From positions 725,001-789,000 of the forward strand of contig OY725506.1 of NCBI GenBank assembly GCA_963281255.1: a DNA stretch of 64,000 nt. Direction: 5' to 3'. Below, one piece after another: positions 12,843 through 45,084 of this stretch. The notes under the pieces are model-generated. The model saw only the letters and a program-made list of their open reading frames with translations, was not told the origin of the DNA and did no database searches. This stretch comes from Aphrocallistes beatrix (taxonomy: Eukaryota > Porifera > Hexactinellida > Sceptrulophora > Aphrocallistidae). The translations under genes and the position numbers were made by a program. Numbering within the stretch: position 1 is the stretch's first letter; each line of letters begins with the position of its first letter.

Positions 12843-13600
12843 CTAAAAACCCCATGTCAACCGTTGGAAGCTAGACTCTAGCCCATTTTGGAATTTATTT
12901 ACTTTATGTATCTATTGTAAACAAAAGTAAACAAATTGATGATCGAATTTACTCGAAAATATGATATTCGAAATCTACACCCCTAAAACCCCATGTTAAC
13001 CGTTGTAAGCAAGTTTCTGGCATATTTTTGAGATTTGTTTACTTTATGCATCTACGTAATGTAAACAAAAGTAAACAAATAATTTATCATATACATCTGA
13101 AAATATGATATTCGAAATCTACACCCCTGAAAATCCCATGTCATCCGTTGGAAGCTAGTCTCTAGCATATTTTGAGATTTGTTTACTTTATGTATCTAAT
13201 GTTAACAAAGTAAACAATAATTTATCATATAGATTTGAAAATATTATATTCGAAATCTACATCCCTAAAAACCCCATGTCAACCGTTTAAAGCAAGTTTC
13301 TGGCATATTTTTGAGATTTGTTTACTTTATGTATTTAATGTAAACAAAAGTAAACAAATAATTTATCATATACATCTGAAAATATGATATTCGAAATCTA
13401 CACCCCTAAAAACCCCATGTCAACCGTTGAAAGCAAGTTTCTAGCATATTTTTGAGATTTGTTTACTTTATGTATCTATTGCAAACAAAAGTAAACAAAT
13501 AATTTATCAAATAGATCTGAAAATATGATATTCGAAATCTACACCTCTGAAAACCCCAAGTCGCCCGTTGGAAGCTAGTCTCTAGCATTATTTTCAAAAT
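12843..13600 (+). repeat. ~140-bp tandem repeats, forward array
   Basis: About six units with a period near 140 bp; the landmark CCCATG followed by YMRCCGTT recurs at about 12850, 12989, 13135, 13272, 13413 and 13554. Each unit contains 'gatattcgaaatctacacccct' and an internal inverted pair TTTACTTT...AAAGTAAAC able to fold. Units in the opposite orientation occur at 14010-14379 and 22560-22930, and one degraded copy is at 38040-38160 in a PARP intron. Confidence 0.88.
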
Positions 13601-13743: not shown

Positions 13744-14001
13744 TCGTGTCGCAACACGTGTTGCGACATGTGTTGCGACATGTGTTGCAACACGTGTTGC
13801 GACATGTGTTGCGACATGTGTTGCGACATGTGTTGCAACACGTGTTGCGACATGTGTTGCGACATGTGTTGCGACATGTGTTGCGACATGTGTTGCAACA
13901 CGTGTTGCGACATGTGTTGCGACATGTGTTGCGACATGTGTTGCGACATGTGTTGCAACATGTGTTGCGACATGTGTTGCGACATGTGTTGCAACACATG
14001 T
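13744..14001. repeat. 12-bp minisatellite (GCGACATGTGTT)n with higher-order variant
   Basis: About 21 copies of the 12-mer GCGACATGTGTT. Every fourth or fifth unit is the variant GCAACACGTGTT, giving a regular super-period. Both variants are centred on palindromes (ACATGT, ACACGTGT with an E-box CACGTG). Several frames are open because 12 is divisible by three and the unit has no stop; these are not genes. It lies exactly between the forward and reverse 140-bp arrays. Confidence 0.93.
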
Positions 14002-14009
14002 GTTTACAT

Positions 14010-14379
14010 TAGATTCATAAAGTAAACAAATCTCAAAATATGCTAGAGACTAGCTTCCAACGGATGACATGGGATTTTCAGGGGTGTAGATTTCGAATAT
14101 CATATTTTTAGATGTATATGATAAATTATTTGTTTACTTTTGCTAACAATAGATACATAAAGTAAACAAATTCAAAAATCTGCTAGAAACTTGCTTTCAA
14201 CGGTTGACATGGGGTTTTCAGGGGTGTAGATTTCGAATATAATATTTTCAGATCTATATGATAAATTTTTTGTTTACTTTTGTTTACAATGGATACATAA
14301 TGTATACAAATCTCAAAAATAGTCTATAGACTAGCTTCCAACGGGTGGCATGGGGCTTTCAGGGGTGTAGATTTCGAAT
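14010..14379 (-). repeat. ~140-bp tandem repeats, reverse array (left part)
   Basis: Inverse orientation of the 12843-13600 units. The marker 'ggggtgtagatttcgaat' recurs at about 14082, 14221 and 14362. The array is cut in the motif TTTCGAAT by the KDZ-like transposon and continues at 22560. Confidence 0.85.
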
Positions 14380-14856
14380 TAGGGTTGTAAAGGGTGAGAA
14401 ACTTTCCGGGAATATTCCCGGGAATTTATAAGACCTGGAAATTTTCGGGAATTTTCGTTTTTCTTAAATATTGAGAAATATTCAAAGATTTTACTGTGCC
14501 GACTATAATATTGTATAGTGGCCCAGTTCTAAAATGCATTATTTTGTTTGTTTGTTTGTATTTGTGAATAGACCTGTCCTGGCTACATCATTATACATTA
14601 AATTTGGCAAGTAGATATGAAAAGTCCATCTAATTTGCATCTCGGTATATGATTTTCCAACCAGCCACAATTTTTGTATTCAATATTTTGAATTGTAATG
14701 TCATTCACGAGAATCACAAGATTTAGAACAATTATAGCCAATATACTTTTCATTTCAATGAGGTTAAATAAAACTCGGTTAAAATTTGTCATATATTTAT
14801 TGACTAGAGCTGTAGCCAATATATTATTATAAGCTATGAGGTAACAAAAAGTACGG

Positions 14857-14943
14857 AGAGCATGCTCTTTAGGTACGGAGAGCATGCTCCTTAGAAGTAC
14901 AGAGAGCATGCTCCTTAGAAGTACGGAGAGCATGCTCCTTAGA
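14857..14943 (+). repeat. Left subterminal array of the KDZ element
   Basis: Four ~21-bp units of the form GTACGGAGAGCATGCTCCTTA, entered through 'taacaaaaagtacgg'. The right-hand array at 21367-21545 is the inverse and ends with 'ccgtactttttgtta'. Subterminal inverted arrays are commonly transposase-binding sites; that role is inferred here. Confidence 0.82.
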
Positions 14944-15082
14944 ATTATATATTGTAGTACTAGTCAATATAATATTTTAAAATCGTTATCACTTTATCTA
15001 ACGATAACTGCATTTCTGGTATAATGAAATTTTTAAGATGTGGTAAATAATTTGCATGCCCTATAATCAATACCTTACCGCT

Positions 15083-15212
15083 ATAGTGGTTGTGAAGCTG
15101 TTATAAACTACTATGACCAAGATATATATTATGTGGTTTCCAAACAGCACTTGTTTAGAAACCACATAAAATATGTCTTGGTTTTAGAAGTTCACAAGTA
15201 TCACAACCACCA
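15083..15212. repeat. Imperfect hairpin/MITE-like inverted repeat
   Basis: TAGTGGTTGTGAAGC at the left pairs with the region ending TCACAACCACCA at the right. An inner stem pairs CCAAGATATATATTATGTGG with CCACATAAAATATGTCTTGG around a short loop. It lies about 70 bp upstream of the transposase start and could be a small MITE or a structured promoter region. Confidence 0.55.
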
Positions 15213-15282
15213 ACCACATAAATAGATGAAGTGAATAACTGTCGCAAACTGTTTTATTTTATAAGTATAATACTTATTTGTA

Positions 15283-18200
15283 ATGTCGAATAATCGAGGA
15301 GCTGATAAAGTACATCTGACTGAACTTGCACCTGTCTCAAGTAAAAGGAGGCGTACAGAAGAACTATCTCTCTCTCAACTCCAAATAGAAGACTTTTCAA
15401 TAAGTAAATCAGACTATCCATCAACTATCCGTAAGTTGTATTAGTAATATGCATATTAAAAACATTTTCAGCATCTGTATAGCAGAAACTAAGTTAGAAA
15501 CAGGGCAGATAGTACTAAGTTAAATTATTTAATAGACGAGCTTCCATACGACTGTGATGGACCTCAGGCCAATGCAGATCATGGAATGGCTCTGCATATT
15601 CTAAATCTCTCACCTGTTGATCGATATATACATTCTCTTCTCCATAATGGAAAATTATGGAAATTGACAAATACACGGATAATAGCTATGTGTGATTATG
15701 TAGACGATGAAGGTATTTATTTTCTTTGAAAATATTTTTATTTATTTACGATCAAGTAGAATCAATTTTGTTTTCATTCATTTAGAGAAACGAACCCTCT
15801 GTCCGTCTACAATTGTAATAATCGATTCATTACTATGTACAGCATGCAGAGATAAGCAGTGTCTACATGCTAAAGCCGCCCAGCTAGCAATTGATGATCA
15901 TTTATTTCAAGAGGTTGATGCGAAAAACCATGCAGGATTTGATATTCACTTTTTGACTGAAAATTCTGCAATATTAGCCGACGCTTCTACTTTTCACCTT
16001 TTCAATTGCAAGGTAACTAGAAGTTATTAATAATTATAACATAAATTTACGGTTGGTTTAATTTTTTACAAAGCACGCTTCGCGCACTTGCATAGCAGGG
16101 AAATTAAGATATCCACATACGTCATTTCTTTGAAGTATTAATAACAATAGTCTATTGAGGTGTCGCACAATGATATCTATAGTGAAAGTGAAGCCATATA
16201 TATTGTATAGAAAAGGTATGAAAAATTGTCTTCCATTATTTTTGCAGAGATGTGAAAATTTCGCTTAGATCTTCAAACTTAATCATAGACTCATTATTAT
16301 TTATCTGTGTGCCAAATTTCACATTTCTAGCACCTCCCAGTTCCTCAATCAATTCTGCACAAACAAAAAAACATAAAAAAAACAAAAAACCATTGCGTTT
16401 TAATATATAAGATATATTATTATACATAATCTTAATTATTTCCGATAGGAAGGCAATTGGTTTTGCAGAACATGCATAAAGCCCTGTAACCTTAAATCGT
16501 CATTTCTAGAAATGTTACCGCTTTCTATACCTAATTGTGGAGACTATAGTGAACAGAAATATGAATCAATTTCTCGTACCCCAATTCCAATACACCTTGA
16601 TGATAATCTTTCCAGTGTCTATGATAATCAGCTGAAGTATGGGCTTCAATTACCTTATGATATTAAGCCTGAAAAAATGAACTGTGTCAATGGTTATCCA
16701 TTTCGTGATCTAAAGCCAGCACGTTCAGCGAAAGGAATCATTATATACACTGATAGTGATGTAATTTCATTAGCAGGCCATCAAGGTACTGTTACTAATT
16801 GATTTATAATAAACTTGCAGTATATTATGTTTTAATTCTTCATATATTTAGTATTCAATGGGACTTGCACTGGTAAATGTAGATGTTTCGCCGTCTATGA
16901 TGGATCATCTGATTTGCTTCTTAACATAGACAACCACTATTTCGTCCATTATTCATTACTATATGAATACAGCGAACTAATGACTATGTCTCGGAATACT
17001 CTTCAAGGATTTGTTAGGTAAGTTGTTAAATTTTTATTTTCCTACGGATACATGTGCTTACATTTAATAAAAGTGTTAAATATGCGGAAAATAATCCTGA
17101 AGTTAAAATTTAAGCCAGTAATTCTGATCAAGGGGTAGGAGTAATACCCTCATTAAGTACCTGATTCACCACGAGTTTCTTGGGATAGTTTCCTTTTAAG
17201 GTATTTATTTCTATTTACTAAGATGGATGTGTGCACTTTACTCTATGGCAAAGGGGTACGCCGACCGAGAAAGGTTCAGAGCCATTGACAAAAAAATATG
17301 AAAAATATCATTTTAACCTTAATTTATCAATCTTAATTTAATTAGAGCAAAGAATCGGAAACTGGTCAGGCTGGGGAGGCCGGAGAAAATACGCTATCAC
17401 ATATTTCACCACGCATGGAATACATACCTCCGCTTAGTGAATATAAATTACACAGAAAGTTTTACATGCTCAATATGCAAAAGTCGTCCGGATGTAGTCA
17501 TATTTGATGGAATTACTCTAGGAACGGTTAAGAAACTCCCGCCCCCAACATTAAAATTCGACGAAAATCAACATATACCTTCTGTTCCTCAGTCAACTCG
17601 CATAGTCATTCTTTCTAAAGCAGTACGAAGGGAAATATCACAATATTTGCAAAATGGACTCCCTACTTGTGCCTTTAAACGGTTACTTCAGTCAATTGAC
17701 CCAAAAGCTCTTGCTGACTACATACAATCTTGTAGTATTCAGGAAAACGATGTTGTTACTAGTTGTAATGATCGTGCCGGAGAAATAATTCAATATTTCT
17801 CTAGGAATGAACCAATATCTGGAGTTTTCCAATTTTCAATCTTAGAGCAGAGCGAACTTGTAGTAATTGTCAAGTTATCCAAGGGCAAATTTGTCCAAGA
17901 AAATATGCTTGTTCCTATTTTTCGTAAAATGTATACTTTGGAGAGATTGTTGCTGTCTTTAGACCCGAAAAAGAAAACTGACGCCGAAGGAAATGTATCA
18001 TTAGCATTAAACTCAATCATATGTCCACTTCTAGTTTGGATAATGGAAAGACTAGAGATTTTATATTCTATGGAATCAAGAAGATTAATACCTTTTGAAT
18101 CAGTAGTTTCGGATTATTTTTCGTTTTATTTTCCAGCATTTAAAACGAATTACAAGTAAGTGTCCTATAATTAGTATCTAACCCAAACAGTTGTACGAAT

Positions 18201-18841
18201 GCCTGTATTAATTCAGTTATAATATTTAGGTTACCAATCTATGAACAAGATGATAATGAAGTAAATAAAGAATATTTTTGTAGAAAGAATTTTCCAAGCC
18301 ATCAAACTTTATCACCAGGAATGATCATGATGACTTGCCAACATCAAATCTGTTATGGATTCCAAATTTTAAGGCAAAAAGAATCTACTGTGGGTATTCT
18401 AAACCTTCTGCTCACTCAATTCGATGTTCCACCCCGCATTATCATCTACGATAATGCGTGTAATCTACAAAAGACATGTATGATCAGGTACGTAATAGTA
18501 TAACCATATAATATAAATATTAAAATCACTGCTTTCCAACCATCGTTGTCATAGTAAGAAATAGCATTTAGCAATATAATCTTTCTTTCAGAGATCCCAA
18601 AGCGTTTCAACAGACGGCTTTTCTGGTTGATCGATTTCATTCAAGAAACCACAAATGTACACCTTTCTATTCTATGAAACACATCTCAGAAAACAAGTTA
18701 AATCGAATTAATTCCCAAATTTGCGAGCAGCTCTTCTCGATTATTCGAAGAATTTCTACACAGATAGCCTATATGAGACTAGAGAACGTTTTCTACACTA
18801 CCCGTTACTTTTTAGCGATAATTAACCAGATGCAGCAATGA
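15283..18841 (+). CDS. KDZ-like transposase (HMGXB3/Zisupton-related), apparently intact
   Basis: Eight exons join in phase to 790 aa without a stop: 15283-15430, 15536-15712, 15786-16012, 16449-16785, 16852-17017, 17346-18155, 18230-18487, 18592-18841; all introns GT-AG. Visible landmarks: an early Cys pair (LCTACRDKQC) and a Cys-rich stretch (WFCRTCIKPC); CTGKCRC; then FTCSICKSRPDVVIFDG with TLG; TCQHQICYGF; IIYDNACNLQKTCMIR; FLVDRFHSRNHKCTPF; and NSQICEQLFSIIRRIS. The order C-x2-C...DG, YDNACNL, DRFH-x3-H-x-C and NSQxCEQ is the signature I associate with KDZ transposases. Likely catalytic acids are Asp of IFDG, Asp of YDNAC and Glu of CEQ (inferred). It would catalyse excision and insertion of its own element in the nucleus. 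Confidence 0.87.
16246..16420. repeat. Dispersed repeat, copy 1 (in a transposase intron)
   Basis: About 170 bp closely matching 23277-23438 in the same orientation (shared 'catagactcattattattta', 'gccaaatttcacatttctag', 'tgcgttttaatatataagat'). It lies in the third intron of the transposase gene. No coding capacity; its class is unknown. Confidence 0.8.
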
Positions 18842-18911
18842 TATACTAGTAGTATGTTAATTATAATTCTGTCATACTATCTTGTGAGATACCAGTTGAG
18901 TATTATTACAA

Positions 18912-20840
18912 TTACTTAATTGTCCTACATTTAAAACATATAAAGTTTGGTACTTCTCCTTGAACATCTGGAAATCCCATGCAGGATTTATGGTACAACT
19001 TCTGACAATTAGTACACTTTGCGAGGTAGTTGAAGGCGTACTCTGGTAACCGACAGACACAAATTAAGGGAATCGTGATTTGCGTCCTCCTTTTATCAGA
19101 TCTCTTCACTGCAACACTTGGAAAGGCAGTCAGATGTTTCGCTTCTAGACACTTTTTGAGATGCTGCCTCATTCGGTTTTGACGCCATTTCACACTCGTT
19201 GGATTGCCACCTAGTGCCACCGTAAGGCATACAGCAGCGGCGAATAAGCCGCAATCAGCACCGCCCTGCTGCTGCTGGATCGGCTCGATTATTACATCAA
19301 GTTCATCTCTTAGTTCTCTTCGGTAGAGCGATGCAAGTTGGGCCTTAATTTATATATTCAAATAGCCACGGTATAATGAATCGTATAGGAACACCTGATC
19401 TGACTCGCTCCTCGATACAATCCAGTGTAATGAGCCATCGTGATGGATTTGGATGCTCTGTGTTTCGGCGGGGATAAATTGACGTTTCTGAAAAGCACAA
19501 TGTTAAGTTTACAATTATAGTACGCTTCTAAATATTCCGTCATTGAAATGTCAATAACTTACTTGACTTAGAATCGTATCTTGCAAACCACGAACGTGCA
19601 GAAATTGATTGAGTAAAACAGCACCTATAATATCAATATTTGTCTTAATTAAGTTCATGTCTAATTTATTATTTATGTTATGTTATAGTATGCATATGCC
19701 CAAACTATTGAATAAATTATTTGGAGTACGATTTATAATTTAAATTCTTACACTGAAAACGTTCATTGTCACATCTGTCAAAAGTGTATTCTCGTGGCTT
19801 AGCTCGTGTAAAGCAACCTTCATGTCCACATCAGATATACTTCTGTTTGAAAGAACATCTTGTGCCGTACCAATTTCTCGCTCTGAAGAGTGAAAAGTGC
19901 AATCGGGTTGCTGAACTCTTTCCGTGGCTATTGACATAGCTATTTCAATAAACAATATAATTATAATCAAATGAATTCGATTAGTTTTAGTAAAAGAATT
20001 ATCACATACTTTGAGTATTCTTCACAGGGGTATCAGCTATTAAGGGAAAGAAATGAGTGGGTTGTCGAGGTGGTTGTATAGATAGGCAACTATCTTCACT
20101 TAACGAGCAAGATTCTGCAAAAAACTCCAGGCTAACAGGGTCAGGTAAGACAATTTTATCACCATCAGAATCAGATGAGACTACATCATCAACAACTAGT
20201 TGACTTTCTCTTTTGGGACTTGAGTGCGGAGATCTGTCTCGAATTTCACTTGAAACTGGCTCAATACCCTTATACGCGTTAAGTATTGCCACTAAAACAT
20301 TAGCCTTGGAATTTCTGACATTACTAAAAGGGTATTTATTTGGCCACCAGTTCGGTTTGAGAGTCGAATTCCCCCAGAAAAATCGTTTCCGACCTGAAAC
20401 AAAAAATAATATCTGTTAAGGCTCTGAAATAATTACGTAATGGCTATTACGAGCCCTTCGTTAGGCTAAAAATACATTTCAGAAAATATTTAAAACTTGC
20501 CGATAGATCGCTGCGTGACTAGAACCACCAGTTTGCGAAGAATAGGAACACTTAGAGTAGAAAAATTCCCTTCTGAAAGTAACCTTAGATCATTTCTATC
20601 CTGATCAGGTTTGGTCAAGGGTTCGTTTACTCGCCCCGATCGGTGAACTGAAGATATCAAGGCCTGCCACACCTCCTCTTTGTGCTTCGATGCAAACTCC
20701 TTAAAAGGTTCTGCTCCGAAGACATTCACTTGCCCGTTCCAAGTGAAAGTTGCCCCTATAGCCTCTCCTGTGACTTTGGAGAACAATTCCAGAGCATTCT
20801 GCAAGTGTTGACGCGCGTTAGATTTCGTCACTCGCGGCAT
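18912..20840 (-). pseudogene. Transposon-borne Ulp1-like (C48) protease with PHD finger, one internal stop
   Basis: Five exons on the minus strand: 20840-20501, 20393-20010, 19939-19754, 19624-19563, 19487-18912, 515 sense codons in phase. The first intron uses a GC-AG pair (G|GCAAGT). The N-terminus (from MPRVTKS) contains a W-rich RKRFFWGN...PNWWP segment. The protease part has HVRGLQDTIL, then catalytic His (DGSLHWIV), Asp (FLYDSLY), and QQQGGADCGLFA with the catalytic Cys. The C-terminus is a C4HC3 PHD-like finger (CVCRL...CTNCQKLYHKSC...FICFKC). A TAA at 19352-19350 falls between the His/Asp and Cys parts, so as read the product is split. It could be a young nonsense mutation, an allele, a sequencing error, or spliced around. 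Ulp1-like proteases remove SUMO-type modifiers; such genes travel with several DNA transposons. Confidence 0.8.
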
Positions 20841-21366
20841 AGCTGTATTTACATACAAGTATGTTGGGCATGTCAAGTATTGAAAAGTTTATTTGAGAAT
20901 TAAGAAAGTTTGTAAACACACTCGTATACATAGATAATTTATGTAAGTTAACTGACAAGAATAGCTATTTTAATTATTAATTAAGAGATGCATTATAAAC
21001 TAATAGTACTAAAGGCCTATTTAAATTGAATAACATACTAATCTACTTGGGTGGGTTTGTTCACACTTGCGGAAACACAACTAGGCTAGCTACGAAACTC
21101 CTAACAAAAATGTACCTTATTGCGCGGATATGTAAGCATAATTAATCCAGACATCCCTAGAAGCGCCGATATTTTTTTTATTAATCTTAATTTCCTGATA
21201 AAATATAAGAATGATATCTAAACAAACTTCATTGAAATAGTACTCCTTGAAATTAAATACGTAGTTATTTGATTGCATAGCTCGCATTTCCTACTTTCTA
21301 AGTGCGCTCACAGCACTTCTATGAAGTTAATTAATAATAATTTATTATGCGCTCCGTACTTTTAAG

Positions 21367-21545
21367 AAGTTGTTCTTTGTACTTCTAAGGAGCATGCTCT
21401 CCGTACTTAAGGAGCATGCTCTCCGTACTTAAGGAGCATGCTCTCCGTACCTAAAGAGCATGCTCTCCGTACCTAAGGAGCATGCTCTCCGTACCTAAGG
21501 AGCATGCTCTCCGTACCTAAGGAGCATGCTCTCCGTACTTTTTGT
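21367..21545 (-). repeat. Right subterminal array of the KDZ element
   Basis: About eight 21-22-bp units, AAGGAGCATGCTCTCCGTACT/C, in inverse orientation to 14857-14943. The core GAGCATGCTC is a perfect palindrome and is also the core of the KDM4 intron array at 29515-30715. Confidence 0.88.
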
Positions 21546-21595
21546 TATATGAAGCTATAAGCTTCTGTTTATCTCATATCAGTTTTAACTTAATA

Positions 21596-22164
21596 CAGTC
21601 AGGGTCGCTTATTATGAACCCGCTTAATATGAACATTCGTTTATTATGAACTAACCTCCTGCTCCCAATTTCATTTTCTAGATAGGATTTGTATTGAATC
21701 AAGTTCGCTTAATATGAAACAAGGCTGGATTCAGTTAACCGGTTAACAGGCTAACCGCCGTCAATCACGGTTAACGGTTAAGAAATTTTTGGACCGGTTA
21801 GCCGATCTGCTTTATTTTGTAAATATTTAGACTAATTTCATTGTTTTTCGATGAAGATTTATGAATATTACTTCTAAAATTTTGATATTACAATATTATT
21901 ACAATTTTTCTAACCAAATAGTATATTTCGAGACCACTGAATATTGTAAATTTTTCAATATCAGGTTAATTAATTAAATATTAGTCGACAAATCCATATT
22001 TATACTAATTAATATTGACATCGGTTAACCGGTTAACCGCCCTGGAGGAAACCAAAATAACCGACCCCGAATATCGGTTAACCAACCCTAGCCCTGTATG
22101 AAATATCTCTATTATGAACATATTTTTTGGTCCCCTGGTGGTTCATAATAAGCGATCCTGACTG
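21596..22164. mobile_element. pogo/Tc-like MITE inside the KDZ element
   Basis: TA-flanked 569-bp unit. The left end CAGTCAGGGTCGCTTATTATG and the right end, its inverse (AATAAGCGATCCTGACTG), are about 26-bp inverted repeats. Further 'cgcttaatatgaac' copies lie inside the left end. No coding frame. It contains the hAT-like MITE at 21720-22096. Confidence 0.8.
21720..22096. mobile_element. hAT-like MITE, innermost of the nest
   Basis: A 377-bp insert with imperfect inverted ends rich in GGTTAACCGGTTAAC (left CAAGGCTGGATTCAGTTAAC, right inverse ...TTAACCAACCCTAGCCCTG). TATGAAA occurs immediately outside both ends (21713-21719 and 22097-22103), a 7-8-bp target duplication as in hAT elements. 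Non-coding. Confidence 0.68.
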
Positions 22165-22559
22165 TAATGACTAGTCAGAAACGTACTGTTAGACTATTTG
22201 ATAGGTTTCCCGATTGTTATAACTACGTATATAGAAAAATCGGCTAACTTATACTTACAAGTAGTATGCGATTTTGTATTACATTTATTATTGATCCATC
22301 TTGAATCAGTTCGGCACTGGTTGTATAATTTACATTTTTTTTTCATTTTTCCTTTATTTTTTTGAGTATTTAGAGGCAAATAAAGAAAGGTTTTAATTGA
22401 ATTCAATTTTTTTACCTCAGAGAAATGCCTCAGAAACAATCAGATTTATTTAAACACTATAGCAGAAATTTCCAGTTCTTATAAATTCCCGGGAATATTC
22501 CCGGAAAGTTTCCTGGAAAGTTTCCACATTTGAAAATTCCCGGGAATTTTGCAACCCTA

Positions 22560-22935
22560 TTTCGAATATAATATTTTCAGATCTATATGATAAATTTTTT
22601 GTTTACTTTTGTTTACAATAGATACATAATGTATACAAATCTCAAAAATAGTCTATAGACTAGCTTCCAACGGGTGGCATGGGGTTTTCAGGGGTGTAGA
22701 TTTCGAATATCATATTTTCGAGTAAATTTGATGATCAAATTTTTTACTTTTGTTTACAATAGATACATAAAGTAAAAAAATTACAAAAAATGGGCTGGAG
22801 ACTAGCTCTTCCAACGGTTAACATTGGGTTTTTAGTGCTGTAGATTTCGAATATTATATTTTCGGATCCATATGAGAAATTATTCGTCGACTTTGTTTAC
22901 AATATTTATAAACGAAAAAATTCCAAAATATGTTA
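22560..22935 (-). repeat. ~140-bp tandem repeats, reverse array (right part)
   Basis: Continuation of the 14010-14379 array after the KDZ insertion, starting with the second copy of TTTCGAAT. About two and a half units, increasingly diverged, run to the right inverted terminus of the outer element. Confidence 0.8.
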
Positions 22936-26743: not shown

Positions 26744-29700
26744 TTACTGACTTGAACTGTTTTCTACTGAATTATTCGTTTGTGAATTTTCGTGCTGCAT
26801 TTCATTACCGATCGGGAGTTTGGATAACTTTGTCTGGACTTTTTTCGGGAGTTTATCTTGAAGTGTGTATACTTCATCGCGAGGGTAAGTCTTCACTGTT
26901 CCATCTTCAAACTCTATCGAATAAATCCATTCTTTATGTTCAGCCTTAATAATTCCGTCGTAGAGCAACCCATCCGTCCATCTGACCTGAACTCGGGTGT
27001 TAACAGCTGTGGAATCGGAGAGGATGTCCGACAGGGGGACGTTGGAACACACCGACTCGTCCTCTATGAATTCTATCTCGAAGCAAGGCTGCTCATTCCG
27101 ATCTGTCACCTTGGCGTGGTAGTATTTAGAGTTGTTACATTTCGCGATCACCGTATCTCCAACTTGGATCAACTTCAATTCCCGCCTAACTTCCTCCTGT
27201 TTATCCTTGTCGTGTCGTGGACAATTGGCGCGTATTCCCTTGCTCCCGTCGTTATCTGGCGCCCAGTGGATGATGCCGTTGTACTGGGCGCACGTGATGT
27301 GGAACGAGGAGGAGCATTTCCGGTACCCGCACTGTAAACAGGCGCCACCGCGCGCTCCATGCACGTTACAATACAGACATTTTAGGCGCCATCTAGCCTT
27401 GGTGATAGAACTCAGATCAACCGGTTCCCGCTTGTCCGGGTCTCCGAACACGACTTCCGGTATGACGACGGCACAGGTGACGTGTGCCCATTTCCCGTTG
27501 GAAGTGGGCTTGAGGGGTCCGCCCCGCAGCTGGCAGAGTTCGCACTGGGCCAGGAAGCTCTTAGCCAGACAGCGACCGCACAGCCAATTGGGCCTGACTT
27601 CGTCCCCGCTGAGTCCGTAGCAGGAAGGGTGCACGGCTATGCGGCACTGGATGCACTGGATGATCTCCTCGTCCTCCTCTTCGTCCGAGCTGTCCGACTG
27701 AGTCTCTGCCCGCTTCTCTCTGCTCCCGCTCCCGCCGCACGAGATGGAGTTGTGCATGTTGAAGGCCGACCTCGGCAGTTCGAACCTGGTCGGGAGGATG
27801 GGAGGGGGCGCATCCCCCTCGCCTGATAAGCGCGCCTTTTTCTCGCCGTTAGCATAGCCCGCGTCGCTGGAGTGTCGCTTCTCGCCGCCATTACTGGACT
27901 CATTCAGCGCGAAAACGGTCTCCTCTGCCACGGAGAAAGTCTCGCTTCCCTCCAGCAGCACGCAGCTGTCTATCCCCGAGTCCGTCCTCCGGTCCAGCAA
28001 CAGAGCAGAGATGTCGAAGCTCTTGCAGTCGGAGGAGAAAGTGGAGGCGGAGGTGTTGAAGACACTGTCGTCCTGGCAGCCACTCGTGTCCATCTCTCCG
28101 GCGGAGGAGAGGCTGGGCTTAGGCAGGTAGTTGTACTTGGCCCGGCCGCGACGGTTCTTCGCTATAACTCGAGTCTTCCCCTCTTTGGAGGCGAGGTAGG
28201 AGAGCTGTAGAGGAGGGGAGAGGGGGTGAGGGGGGTCTAGGAGGGTGTCGGGGTTCATGAGTCCGCCTTTCTTGTTCAATTTGAGCGCCCAATAAGTGGT
28301 GAGGAGTTCCTCCCGTGAGAAACCCTGGAAAGGTGACGGGTCTTCGAAGAGCGCACAGATGGAGCAGCGGCTCCCCTTCTGACTCATGACGAGATTGAAA
28401 GCTGACTCGAAGATGAAGTTGTCCGGGGACTGCCCCCGCCAGAGGCCCGAGAAAGGAGAGCACCACTCGTTCATCTTCCCCTCCAGCTTCAGGTCTTTCT
28501 CTGTCAGGGAGTCGAGCTCCATTTCTGAGAGATCGGGTCTCTTCGCTGGCGTGTTGGATTTCGCAGATTTACTTTTCGCGCCACGCTTTTTCTCCTGGTC
28601 CTGCTTCTTCTTCTGAGCGAGGTAGGATGGGTACTGGTCCGGTTGGTACTTCTTCACGAACATGTCCATGTCTATGTGGACTCCGTCTGGGTCGCACTGG
28701 CACATGACGGCCTTCTTGCCGAGGTCTATCCACTGGGAGGTAGCGAAGTTCGTACTCTCTGCCAAGTTGAGGCCCAGGTTGAATCCGGAGTGATAGGCCC
28801 GGGGGAAAGAGATCACGATCTGTCCCTCTCTCTGCACAACTCTGGAGAAAGGGACAGAGTACTTCTTCAACACGGTAGGGGAGATGACAGTCATTTTGTG
28901 ACGCAGGAATGCAGGGCAATCCCTGAAATGGTCAGGGAAGAAAGAGCGAGCGAGTCTCTCCAGCTTGTGAGCATCGTCCGGGGGGATCCCGTACCAGAGT
29001 TTGGGGGCTCCGTAGTGGAGGTAGTTGATGCTGTACAGGTCCATGTCCTCTGTGTGCCACCCGAACGTGGACCGCCACATTCCGGCGTACAGGTAGGCCG
29101 TGTGCACCCCGGGGATCTTTATGCCGGTCTCCTGTGGGACTGTCTGTAGGATGCTGTCCAGGTTACTATATAAGGAAGCAAGGAACTCAGTTAAGTGGGA
29201 GTATAGTACAGGTGACTCCGCTAAATCGGGACACTTTGGTCCCGGATACTCTGTTCCGATTAAGCGGAGTTCCCAATTAACCGATGAAATTTAGGATTAA
29301 CTTCCATACAAGGGAACCATTCCGTTCCTGGAGACTTGTCCCAATTAAGCGGTTGCCCCTATTAAGCAGAGTTGACTGTAAATAGATTTCAGAAGTTCTT
29401 AACTACATTACTATAAATTCTGCTTATAGTAAAAAGTCGAGAGAGCATGCTCGTTAAATCGAGAGAGCGTTCCTTAGGTTGAAATAGGATGTTCTACCTA
29501 AGAGCATGCGAGTCTCGACCGAAGAGCATGCTCTCGACCTAAGATCATGCTCTCGACCTAAGATCATGCTCTCGACCTAAGATCATGCTCTTGACCGAAG
29601 AGCATACTCTCGACTGAAGAGCATGCTCTTGATCGAAGAGCATGCTCTTGATCGAAGAGCATGCTCTTGACCGAAGAGCATGCTCTCGACCTAAGATCAT

Positions 29701-31252
29701 GCTCTTGACCGAAGAGCATGCTCTTGATCGAAGAGCATGCTCTCGACTGAAGAGCATGCTCTTGATCGAAGAGCATGCTCTTGACCGAAGAGCATGCTCT
29801 TGATCGAAGAGCATGCTCTTGACCGAAGAGCATGCTCTTGACCGAAGAGCATGCTCTTGATCGAAGAGCATGCTCTCGACCTAAGATCATGCTCTTGACC
29901 GAAGAGCATGCTCTTGACCGAAGAGCATGCTCTTGACCGAAGAGCATGCTCTCGACTGAAGAGCATGCTCTTGATCGAAGAGCATGCTCTTGACCGAAGA
30001 GCATGCTCTCGACCGAAGAGCATGCTCTTGACCGAAGAGCATGCTCTTGATCGAAGAGCATGCTCTCGACTGAAGAGCATGCTCTCGACCTAAGATCATG
30101 CTCTTGACCGAAGAGCATGCTCTTGACCGAAGAGCATGCTCTCGACCTAAGATCATGCTCTTGACTGAATAGCATGCTCTTGACCGAAGAGCATGCTCTC
30201 GACTGAAGAGCATGCTCTTGACCGAAGAGCATGCTCTTGATCGAAGAGCATGCTCTTGACCGAAGAGCATGCTCTCGACCGAAGAGCATGCTCTTGATCG
30301 AAGAGCATGCTCTTGACCGAAGAGCATGCTCTTGACCGAAGAGCATGCTCTTGATCGAAGAGCATGCTCTCGACTGAAGAGCATGCTCTCGACCTAAGAT
30401 CATGCTCTTGACTGAATAGCATGCTCTTGACCGAAGAGCATGCTCTCGACCGAAGAGCATGCTCTCGACCTAAGATCATGCTCTTGACCGAAGAGCATGC
30501 TCTTGATCGAAGAGCATGCTCTTGACCGAAGAGCATGCTCTTGATCGAAGAGCATGCTCTTGATCGAAGAGCATGCTCTTGACCGAAGAGCATGCTCTCG
30601 ACCTAAGATCATGCTCTTGACCGAAGAGCATGCTCTTGATCGAAGAGCATGCTCTCGACCTAAGATCATGCTCTTGATCGAAGAGCATGCTCTCGACCTA
30701 AGAAGCATGCTCTCTCACTTTTCAATACCTCAAATTCTGATATTATCCTTGGTTCAATAATATAGAATGCTAAATTTGATTTCTAATTGGGATTCGATCT
30801 AACCTGATATTCCACACAGTGACGTCACTGTCAAATAAACTGCCAGACACGTCAGCTCCGTAGATGACTTGATTGAAAGTGACATTTCTCCAATACTTCC
30901 TCTCCAACTCGTCGATATCCTGTGTCTTGGGACTCTTGTACTCGTTTGTAGCTGTCAGTTTGCGAAATGTTTTGAAGTTTGTCGGTTTCTTCTGTATATT
31001 ATACATCTGATAGACACCTTGAGACCCGCTGATCAGCTGGAGGATGGGACATGGCATCTGGAAGTCTGCGTCTTCGTAGCTTCCTTTGTAAGGCACCCAT
31101 TCTTTCGGTGGAATCACTTTTGTGAGTCCCTTTTTCTGAGCGCCTTGTGACTCCATGTATGAAATAAAGCGCGGGAAATCTTTGAACTGTTCCATGGTTG
31201 GTCTGAACACCATCACCCCATCCTCCCATTGAAACTCACAGTTCTCAATCAT
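26744..31252 (-). CDS. KDM4: JmjC histone demethylase KDM4
   Basis: Two coding exons, 31252-30804 and 29165-26744, join in phase 2 (AG|T) to 956 aa. The first holds JmjN (VMVFRPTMEQF, ESQGAQKKGL) and the ELERKYWRNVTFN segment. The second holds JmjC with the Fe(II) ligands H187 and E189 (WHTEDMDLYSINY) and H275 (AYHSGFN), then a linker, a PHD finger plus extended PHD (CELCQLRGG, HVTCAVV, CLQCGYRKC), and a double Tudor domain (GDTVIAKCNNSKYYHAKV and VQVRWTDGLLYDG). It should demethylate H3K9me3/me2 and possibly H3K36me in the nucleus, with Tudor reading of methylated H3/H4. This is the full vertebrate KDM4A-C layout, shorter in the linker. Its single coding intron holds a MITE and a 1.2-kb palindromic minisatellite. 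Confidence 0.96.
29209..29378. mobile_element. pogo-like MITE in the KDM4 intron
   Basis: TA-flanked 170-bp unit with imperfect inverted ends: CAGGTGACTCCGCTAAATCG at the left, and AATTAAGCGG...AGAGTTGACTG at the right as a partial inverse. Non-coding; same general design as 8304-8468. Confidence 0.65.
29430..30717. repeat. 19-bp palindromic minisatellite in the KDM4 intron
   Basis: About 63 units of GAAGAGCATGCTCTTGAYC over 29515-30715. Variants are mixed: GACC, GATC or GACT spacers, and AGATCATGCTCT replacing AGAGCATGCTCT. The core AAGAGCATGCTCTT is a perfect palindrome, so each unit can fold on itself. The outer edges are inverted to each other: AAAAAGTCGAGAGAGCATGCT at about 29430 and AGCATGCTCTCTCACTTTT ending about 30721. 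The long open frames here (up to ~298 codons, several frames on both strands) exist because a 19-bp unit without stops rotates through all frames; they are not genes. Confidence 0.95.
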
Positions 31253-32394
31253 CTGGAGCTAATCTAGCTGTAACAACAACGTGCTCACCATTAGACGATA
31301 CAAAGATTTACGCACAAGCCTATTCTGAATTCGTTTGAGACAGAAGTCATTGAAAATTGATACGTTACTCCTTCTAAGGTTTAATATTATAAAGTAAAAT
31401 ACTTGAAAGTCAAAAGTAAAAAATTCAGTTTTCAAATTTTTCTTTTACAGAATCGTATCTAGGGAGAGGGGAGGGGGCGATGTCTCCCTTGTTCCATTCA
31501 AAACCCGCTCTTGCGTAAGAGTATTGTCTGAATTAAATTTAGAACACACCCCAAATAGGGAGATAGATACTGAGCTAGAATAACATTGAAGGTTCTGCTG
31601 GTATGATCTACTTATGGGAACGGCGTTATGCATATCCATCCATGTACGTTTGAGTGGACGCAAACCCAACTAATTCTGTGTAAACTTATCTAGTAGGGTT
31701 TCAATAATGACATCACCTCATACTCATACTTAATTATGCCCATTTTGCTGCTAACTCAGTAAATTATTCAACTCGTAGTTTGTTAGCACAAACTCGGCAC
31801 GGAATGAAATTCTATCTTGTAGTTCATGCTGGAAGTAATGAACGAATACTTAGAAAATCTGAGATACAGAATCGGGAAGCAAGTGAATTTGTCAAACAGA
31901 CAAAATGACGTGTAAGGTTCGATTAGAATACATACATATTTAACTAAAAATATTTAGTAGAAATGCGAGGATCACTTACAAGCTTTATCTACCAAGGAAT
32001 ATAGCAAATTACCGCTAATCTCTGAGCATATTGCTCCGACGTAAATATTAATAACAGTCGTACTATCCGTACTGAATTCTCCGTCCGAATGTGCTATTCG
32101 AATAGGATATAACATCTTATCATAAAACTCAATAAGGTTTGCCTAGGATCTTATTTAGAGTGGTTCAGGCATGAAAGTAAGGATTTCGTAATATCGTGTT
32201 AGGGAATTAAGACATTGAAAGCAGAGGTATTGTATTGCTCACAACTAAGTACAATTGATTTGGTCTATGATGAAATTCTAGAAGCATTGAGGTAGAAATT
32301 ATGCAGTAGGATCAACATAAATAGAGAATTGAGTAATTCTTTTCAAGTAAAAACGAATTAGTGAATTGGAAAATCTTCAATTGTTCTAACAAAA
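31253..32394. other. Intergenic between divergent KDM4 and TNFAIP8-like genes
   Basis: No gene seen. The flanking genes start outward from this 1.1-kb stretch, so it probably contains both promoters. I cannot name elements. Confidence 0.5.
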
Positions 32395-43756: not shown

Positions 43757-45084
43757 GGTCGTTCAATAAGTCTTGCGGGTCATGGTATATTTCGCAAACT
43801 ATAATAGTAAACAAATCAGTTTTTATCTATAAGACAACCTTATATCTTAGCTTGATTTACTGAAAATCTTGGCTTGATTGAATGAAAATTACAAATTTCT
43901 GATCAATTTATTCACACATCATTTCAACATACTGGTAAAATTATGGCTTCCAAGGATGACAATTTTAATCTGAAATGGAGAGCTTACATTGAGTTTCGCA
44001 CAAAACTCCGCATCCAGCCGGTACTCATCTACAACGAGTTGCAGGAGGTATTGTGCATGGACTGCCCTTCCAGATCAACGGTCGAGCGATGGGCTGCACG
44101 ATTTCAGTCTGGAAATACAAACGTGTCAGATCTACCTCGATCTGGGAGACCGGTGTCCGTCAGCACCCCAGAGAATGTTGCTCTAATCGAGAGCAAAGTC
44201 AGGGAAGATAAGTGTATAACAATCGAGCAGTTAGAGCAGAGTATGGAGATTTCATCGGGGGCCATTCATTCCATTCTGACTACTCAGCTTGGTTTCCGAT
44301 CCATTTGCGGTAAGTGGGTCCCAAATAACCTCGGCGATCAACAAAAGCTCGCACGTGTAAAGACTGCCAAGAAACTCCTGGAAACCTATGACGGTTGTGA
44401 TTCTAGACGCCTAGCTGAAGTTATAACCGGGGATGAGACTTGGGTATATTATTCAACCCCTTACAGCAAGTATAAAATGCGATCATGGGTGAGAGGCGAC
44501 GAAAGACCGGCCCAAATTCCTAGGCCCGACTTCAGAAAACCGAAGGTCATGTACACGATCTTCTTCAATAGTAGTGGAATAGTCTTGCAAATACCTTCTG
44601 AAAGTGGTAAAACAGTAAACGCAACGTTTTTTATAGAGAAAGTACTTCCAAACCTAATAAAAAACGTGGAAGAGCTCCGTCCCAGGCTAAAATGAGGGGA
44701 ATAAAATTATTGATAGATAATGCTAGCTCCCATACAACCAAGCTCACTAAAAATTTCTTGGAATCAGAGGGGTTAGATTTACTTCCCCACCCACCCTACT
44801 CACCAGACCTAGCTCCCTGTGATTTTTGGCTATTCCCCAAGCTCAAAATCTACCTTCAAAGCAGGGAATTTTAGTCGAAACAAACCCTCGGGTCGGCCCT
44901 GTACCAGTTCTTCAAATCCACCCCCGAAGAAGAGTACAGAAATGCATTCATAAAGTGAGTGGAAAGATCGAAACGCTGTGTAGAAGTAGGAGGGGGGTAT
45001 TTCGAATAAATAATACATTGAGACATATTCTATGACATTTATTTATGATTTTATGGTATGACCCGCAGGACTTTTTGAATGCCC
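43757..45084 (+). mobile_element. mariner transposon, decayed
   Basis: 1,328 bp, a normal mariner length, flanked by TA (43755-43756 and 45085-45086). Inverted termini of about 30 bp are GGTCGTTCAATAAGTCTTGC at the left and, reversed, GGGCATTCAAAAAGTCCTGC at the right, both followed by GGGTCAT. Confidence 0.92.
43943..45021 (+). pseudogene. mariner transposase (DD34D), broken
   Basis: Starts MASKDDNFNLKWR. It contains paired helix-turn-helix regions (STVERWAARFQSG; GRPVSV), WVPNNL in place of the usual WVPHEL, first Asp in ITGDETWVYY, second Asp in LIDNASSH, and YSPDLAPCDFWLFP whose final Asp lies 34 residues after the second, the DD34D spacing. At about 44692 the frame shifts by one nucleotide. 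Later there is a TAG at about 44872 and, near the C-terminus, a TGA at about 44956 where Trp is usual. At least three lesions make it inactive, though divergence looks modest. Confidence 0.9.

Follow-up and report, generated by a model that had tools for sequence, protein, structure and literature searches.

A KDZ-superfamily transposon of a glass sponge whose companion gene joins an NRF1-type domain to an Ulp1-like protease and a PHD finger

What does a transposon gain from a second gene that encodes an Ulp1-like protease and a PHD finger? We addressed this question in a 64,000-nucleotide stretch of the hexactinellid sponge Aphrocallistes beatrix (GCA_963281255.1, contig OY725506.1, positions 725,001 to 789,000; hereafter the window), which carries a KDZ-superfamily element with a transposase gene and, convergent to it, a gene whose product we call the companion. 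The companion begins with an NRF1-type DNA-binding domain, which was missed in the original prediction made from these letters, and the ends of the element hold arrays of a palindrome that resembles the NRF1 site. On these sequence grounds we consider it likely that binding of the end palindromes is how the companion acts. The element would then offer a readable address system in an animal DNA transposon, composed of a DNA-binding protein, its likely sites and an enzyme to deliver.

Domains of the companion and its pairing with the transposase

The transposase gene has eight exons, all with GT-AG boundaries, and its predicted 790-aa frame was unbroken. The product matched the Pfam KDZ profile PF18758 with 30.8 bits (cut-off 26.6, E 3.1e-7), so that the predicted intact KDZ transposase was borne out, and the CxC4 cysteine cluster with 26.0 bits, just under the cut-off of 26.9. 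An exon-wise scan of the genome with PF18758 gave no match, even at the transposase of the window, and was uninformative. By sequence the element is assigned to the KDZ superfamily, with the subgroup (Zisupton, Dileera or Kyakuja) left unassigned. The target-site duplication (TSD) of the family, 7 bp, lies within the 7-8-bp range of KDZ elements and differs from the 8 bp of Zisupton proper. Reported lengths are 8 bp for Zisupton and 7 bp for Kyakuja (PMC12730594), and in Cryptococcus 8 bp for KDZ1 and 4-8 bp for KDZ2/3.

In the companion, an NRF1-type domain is followed by an Ulp1-like protease and then by a PHD finger. The predicted first intron of its gene has GC-AG boundaries. When exons 1 and 2 were joined, the Pfam profile PF10491 (Nrf1_DNA-bind) matched with 33.2 bits (cut-off 23.5, E 5.4e-8) over positions 67-176 of its 213, and the companion of the C18 copy gave 29.9 bits. 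Only two PDB sequences matched at E≤10, and both were NRF1 (8k4l, E 5.8e-6; 8k3d, E 1e-4). A profile of three families retrieved the same two entries (1e-7 and 1.8e-5), the next three being unrelated with E 0.29 or weaker. The solved structure of NRF1 assigns the TG of the CATG centre to R206, the outer G to N242 and the intervening positions to R244 (PMC10810270); by hand-counted positions, these residues align with R, N and R in both the window-family companion and the C19 family. The nine matches of an exon-wise scan of the genome with PF10491 comprised the host NRF1, the C19 family and seven copies of the window family, six of which passed the cut-off. The N-terminus of the companion is thus best described, from its sequence, as an NRF1/EWG-type dimerisation and DNA-binding domain, which would be expected to bind DNA. 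The full-length host NRF1 gene at C1:8494049 reached 167.7 bits with PF10491; its domain (C1:8494049-8494699) lies in a single 485-aa open frame and has no intron.

The Pfam C48 profile reached 14.3-14.8 bits on the companions of the window and C18 copies, below the cut-off of 20.7, and PDB 6dg4, an Ulp1-like SUMO protease, matched exon 5 with E 0.0029. Ulp1/C48 proteases use His, Asp, Gln and Cys in their active site. Active-site-like His, Gln and Cys were found in all three aligned rows, and Asp in two of them, the third row being a degraded copy. We infer from this Ulp1/C48-like domain that the companion would act as a SUMO protease. The PHD finger scored 25.2 bits on the exon piece (cut-off 24) and 22.3 bits on the whole protein, and its closest relatives were PHF2, PHF8 and BPTF. 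The tryptophan of the aligned PHF2 PHD motif, which belongs to the aromatic cage for methyl-lysine, is replaced by leucine in the companion, which makes reading of methyl-lysine (trimethylated lysine 4 of histone H3, H3K4me3) doubtful. Of the predicted chromatin-reader finger, the PHD assignment and its kinship stand, but the label as a reader is uncertain.

To see how constant the pairing is, 116 transposase matches were clustered into 50 loci, and Ulp1-like exons were counted within 4 kb downstream and NRF1-like exons within 6.5 kb. A convergent Ulp1-like exon lay downstream at 35 of the 50 loci, compared with 0 of 50 for the control arrangement and a chance per locus of about 0.2-0.3%; the Ulp1 gene belongs to the element, as predicted, and is no later insertion. 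NRF1-like exons were present at no fewer than 28 of the 50 loci and both exons at no fewer than 26 (83 of 117 NRF1-like matches used), and 13 loci had neither among the matches listed. Transposase identity to the window's transposase ranged over about 32-58% across the paired loci. Between the window and C19 families, synonymous sites were saturated or nearly so. The proportion of nonsynonymous differences (pN) was 0.27 in companion exon 1, 0.25 in companion exon 5 and 0.28 in transposase exon 6, and the ratio of nonsynonymous to synonymous change (dN/dS), where computable, was 0.26 in companion exon 2 and 0.14 in transposase exon 6. Compared with an old 91% copy, dN/dS was 0.36-0.50, with few changes.

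These values point to the companion as an old, selected part of the element lineage. They bear on the alternative that it is a decaying passenger of no current use to the element: the companion is broken in the window and C6 copies and no Ulp1-like exon lies near 15 of the 50 transposase loci, but it has been kept beside transposases as distant as 32% identity, amino-acid change is limited although synonymous change is saturated, and uninterrupted copies exist. We therefore regard a mere passenger as very improbable.

End palindromes as candidate addresses

The palindrome GAGCATGCTC is 10 bp long and resembles the NRF1 site GCGCATGCGC, the CATG core being common to both. It occurs 60 times in the window, compared with 0.04 expected, and forms one array near each end of the element. 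A search for the terminal motif allowed 26 further ends to be read, of which 23 carried arrays of the GAGCATGCTC or GATCATGATC type. Genome-wide, there were 1546 array pairs of GAGCATGCTC and 129 of GATCATGATC, and patterns read backwards gave 0 each. Since copies of the GAGC class are near-identical, conservation of their columns says little, and only the GATC class is informative. In the latter, palindrome columns held 1.7-2.0 bits, the CATG columns being fixed by the anchoring of units, and most spacer columns held 0.35-1.0 bits; an upstream GTAC and one A were also conserved. At C1:165350-165999, C1:728356-728924 and elsewhere, pairs of inverted GAGCATGCTC arrays whose spacer is a different one (GTTAAGTCGAGA or similar) lie within a few hundred bases of each other; they probably represent a large non-autonomous family that shares this palindrome.

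Should the palindromes serve as NRF1-type addresses, the literature site itself might be in use in some families, and arrays of exact GCGCATGCGC were then found: 144 in the genome, with 0 for a control pattern. Of these arrays, 50 were listed, from C1 to part of C8; in that part, 4 of 26 transposase loci had one no farther than 6.5 kb away, and 3 of the four had one on both sides. For random places the corresponding shares are 0.64% for one side or more and 0.03% for both, on a baseline that assumes the sizes of two contigs. All four loci carried transposase, Ulp1-like and NRF1-like exons, and their transposases were 39-42% identical to that of the window. Arrays of GATCATGATC (the GATC class) accompanied 6 of 36 transposase loci on at least one side and 1 on both, again among the arrays listed; the tally was made for the GCGCATGCGC and GATCATGATC classes and not for GAGCATGCTC.

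We propose that a homodimer of the companion would bind the end palindromes via its NRF1-type domain. As in NRF1, an arginine would recognise the TG of the CATG core, and an asparagine would recognise the outer G. The bound companion would deliver its SUMO-removing protease to both ends and to nearby promoters, and the PHD finger may touch histone tails at the ends. There is, in our estimate, an even chance that local loss of SUMO relieves a SUMO-dependent silencing of the element; in Drosophila, Piwi-mediated heterochromatin requires SUMOylation (PMC8733420). In addition or instead, the companion might help the transposase assemble at the ends, which we put forward more tentatively.

Several observations weigh against this proposal. 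The affinity of human NRF1 drops when C4 of its site is changed to A (PMC10810270), and the window-family palindrome has A at position 4, where NRF1 has C and R244 reads the paired G; the arginine is kept in the companion. Likeness of the half-sites to that of NRF1 is weak when taken alone, with 4 of 5 positions for GAGCA (chance 1.6%) and 3 of 5 for GATCA (10%). Three of the 26 ends read had no array, and among the arrays listed, exact GCGCATGCGC was absent at 22 of 26 loci and GATCATGATC at 30 of 36. The Ulp1 match stayed under the Pfam cut-off. Single-sequence folding gave no support for exon 1 (mean predicted local distance difference test score, pLDDT, 63; best Foldseek E 1.2) or for exon 5 (mean pLDDT 37), and the companions of the window and C6 copies are broken.

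The transposase could also be the protein that binds the arrays, for example through its cysteine cluster, while the NRF1-type domain of the companion binds elsewhere, such as at NRF1 sites in host promoters. Subterminal repeats in other superfamilies are often transposase sites, and the departure at position 4 from the human NRF1 site fits this alternative as well. Yet the palindrome has the length of the NRF1 site and its CATG core, and distant families hold exact NRF1-site arrays beside their elements. We consider binding by the transposase instead of the companion unlikely.

A relative of the element at 29423-30731 of the window holds little besides the ends and palindromes, the latter with a 19-bp period, which suggests that ends and palindromes are the cis requirement. 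It lies inside an intron of a KDM4-like gene (JmjN 30773-31258; JmjC, PHD and Tudor_2 within 26747-29290). This relative, the presence of mutually inverted arrays at both ends and the constant pairing of companion and transposase all favor another explanation, in which the companion is mainly an obligatory co-factor of transposition that binds and pairs the two ends, has the transposase or repair factors as the substrates of its protease, and does not target silencing. In Ginger1, moreover, the transposase itself contains an Ulp1 domain, for which its authors propose a role in transposition (PMC2836005). However, the window and C6 copies lack an intact companion, though it might be supplied in trans, and accessory genes of fungal KDZ elements are thought to counter silencing (PMC12730594). 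We hold the co-factor explanation to be possible, at somewhat less than even chance.

The proposed binding of end palindromes by the companion also raises the question of the origin of NRF1. NRF1 and the companions might share one transposon-borne ancestor, a homodimeric GCGCATGCGC-type reader that delivered a SUMO-removing enzyme to element ends; we regard this idea as speculative and rather unlikely. If it is true, the host NRF1 would be a domesticated descendant that still reads the original end motif, which some elements here use.

Comparison with known systems

Like the fungal KDZ transposons that carry TET/JBP genes and the nematode Zisupton elements, as described in passages of PMC12730594 and PMC9297572, the element combines a KDZ domain and a multi-exon transposase with duplications of 7-8 bp. 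It further resembles the fungal elements in having an accessory gene with a possible anti-silencing role. Unlike in the fungal elements described there, this gene encodes NRF1-type, Ulp1 and PHD domains, not TET/JBP, and palindromic arrays occupy the ends. Nematodes are known to carry KDZ elements, and related ones occur in lancelets, sea stars and mussels (PMC9297572).

In its dimerisation and DNA-binding domain the companion is homologous to NRF1 and erect wing (PMC10810270); the three residues that read bases are the same, and so is the CATG core of the site. In contrast to them, it is the product of a transposon gene and has a protease and a PHD finger in the same protein, and the palindrome of the window family differs at positions 4 and 11. 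VANDAL elements are plant Mutator-type elements, and the domains of their VANC proteins are not known to be related to those of the companion. If our reading is right, the companion would nevertheless be like VANC of Arabidopsis VANDAL in being a transposon-encoded protein that goes with tandem motifs in its own element, VANC proteins being anti-silencing proteins with tandem targets that differ between relatives (PMC5735166). This trait of tandem, family-specific motifs inside the element is present here. Unlike the companion, VANC acts on DNA methylation. Ginger1 of Hydra likewise has an Ulp1-type protease in an animal DNA transposon, joined in one family by a PHD finger, but there the domains are C-terminal parts of the transposase (PMC2836005), whereas here they form a separate gene with its own DNA-binding domain.

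Our literature search, which did not extend to the founding Zisupton/KDZ papers, returned neither an NRF1-type domain carried by a transposon nor a pairing of KDZ with Ulp1, and the word "Ulp1" has 0 occurrences in the texts of PMC12730594, PMC9297572, PMC12810828 and PMC12477816. If binding by the companion is true, removal of SUMO at the ends would be a testable counter-defence in an animal, parallel to VANC in plants and TET/JBP in fungi. This genome also provides many natural NRF1-type domains and no fewer than three classes of site as material for the study of specificity change.

Extent of the element and state of its copies

The original prediction placed the element at 14380..22559, with long inverted termini and an 8-bp duplication. 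Both features exist, the duplication being TTTCGAAT, but they belong to an unrelated outer element. The left 601 bases had at least 65 matches in the genome (40 of 219 candidates scored); most of the long ones ended at base 461, and many had an inverted 47-base partner close by. Window positions 14380-14840 are thus repeated as a piece of a separate multicopy element. When the interior was used as the query, near-identical copies matched over 14838-21551 and the outer parts were not common to them; the C6 copy had 18 mismatches in 6,710 aligned bases and the C18 copy 12 in 6,667. All five copies of the outer element that were read over this position have the empty site ...AAGCTATAAGC... unbroken, one of them differing by a single base, and in the window the order is AAGCTAT, transposon, second AAGCTAT. 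Because of the common extent of the copies, the uninterrupted outer-element copies and AAGCTAT on both sides, we conclude that a 6,714-bp transposon jumped into an unrelated multicopy element. The termini at 14380 and 22559 with TTTCGAAT, taken as the transposon's own, are ruled out by the outer-element copies and the empty sites.

An exact 7-bp TSD flanked four of the six copies with both ends read (C20, C6, C18 and C13); C7 had none, and C3 matched at a one-base offset. This tally excludes the ends C1:3512463 and C1:3544298, which are not oriented so as to enclose a simple insertion although both flanks have CGAATTC, and the C1:10.75 Mb copy, which lacks its right end. Where the prediction looked for full copies with 8-bp duplications, the outer ends recur as a separate element, and the exact TSDs of the transposon copies are 7 bp. 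As the copies are near-identical, recent movement of the family, which we read as a cut-and-paste transposon, is indicated. In one 98-99% copy (L022, C3:5842300-5851400), the interior is inverted relative to both termini, which looks like the result of recombination between the two inverted arrays at its ends.

Of the four copies examined, three (window, C6 and C18) have an intact transposase frame, and the one at C1:10.75 Mb has a frameshift in it. In exon 5 of the window's companion the frame runs into a premature stop, which none of the five other copies read has, and a 2-bp length difference sets exon 4 apart from the five other copies covering that exon; in the C6 companion, one base is missing from exon 2. 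Uninterrupted companions, of 514 and 515 residues, are found in the C18 and C1:10.75 Mb copies. Judged from these frames, versions of both genes that look functional exist in the family. The window copy, however, is not the complete-looking autonomous element of the original prediction, because its companion is broken; with its intact transposase, it would depend on companions from other copies. The predicted convergent gene is there, with its five exons, Ulp1-like region and PHD finger, but it is not intact here. An old copy (L025/L026, C1:3541247-3542563) has an insertion of ~1.3 kb with inverted ends in companion exon 5, at a site that adjoins the position of the window companion's stop.

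Table 1. Positions of the element, its genes and associated features in the window
Feature	Position	Strand	Remarks
KDZ-superfamily element	14838..21551	+	6,714 bp; ends GAGGTAAC.../...TATATG; extent common to near-identical copies and empty sites
Left TSD, AAGCTAT (7 bp)	14831..14837		
Right TSD, AAGCTAT (7 bp)	21552..21558		
Outer unrelated element, left part (TAGGGTTG...)	14380..14837		left terminus in the original prediction
Outer unrelated element, right part (...CAACCCTA)	21559..22559		
8-bp TSD of outer element, TTTCGAAT	14372-14379 / 22560-22567		
Left subterminal array	14849..14944		four GAGCATGCTC palindromes, 22-24-bp period
Right subterminal array	21385..21538		seven GAGCATGCTC palindromes, 22-bp period, inverted relative to left
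Transposase	15283..18841	+	8 exons, 790 aa, uninterrupted; open-frame joining, Pfam KDZ and CxC4; predicted splicing
Transposase exons	15283-15430, 15536-15712, 15786-16012, 16449-16785, 16852-17017, 17346-18155, 18230-18487, 18592-18841	+	
Companion gene	18912..20840	-	5 exons, premature stop in exon 5 in window copy; convergent to transposase
Companion exons	20840-20501, 20393-20010, 19939-about 19753, 19624-19563, 19487-18912	-	
NRF1/EWG-type dimerisation and DNA-binding domain (predicted)	20010..20840	-	companion exons 1-2; Pfam PF10491, PDB 8k4l/8k3d
Ulp1/C48-like protease core and C-terminal PHD finger (predicted)	18912..19487	-	companion exon 5; Pfam C48/PHD, PDB 6dg4
Non-autonomous relative	29423..30731		49 GAGCATGCTC and 15 variant CATG sites; ends like the element's, ~1.3 kb
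Exact 8-bp TSD of relative, AAATTCTG	29415-29422 / 30732-30739		

The outer multicopy element itself lies inside a 141-bp minisatellite (12843-13594, 14006-14379 and 22559-22904), which is adjoined by a 12-bp satellite at 13746-13996. Its right part contains a nested repeat with inverted ends of the CAGTCAGGGTCGC type (21595-22166), within which 21720-22096 is a multicopy sequence of ~377 bp rich in GGTTAACC. Farther along the window, a 269-aa open frame at 43886-44692 matched Transposase_1 with 29.5 bits (cut-off 24) and probably encodes a mariner-type transposase.

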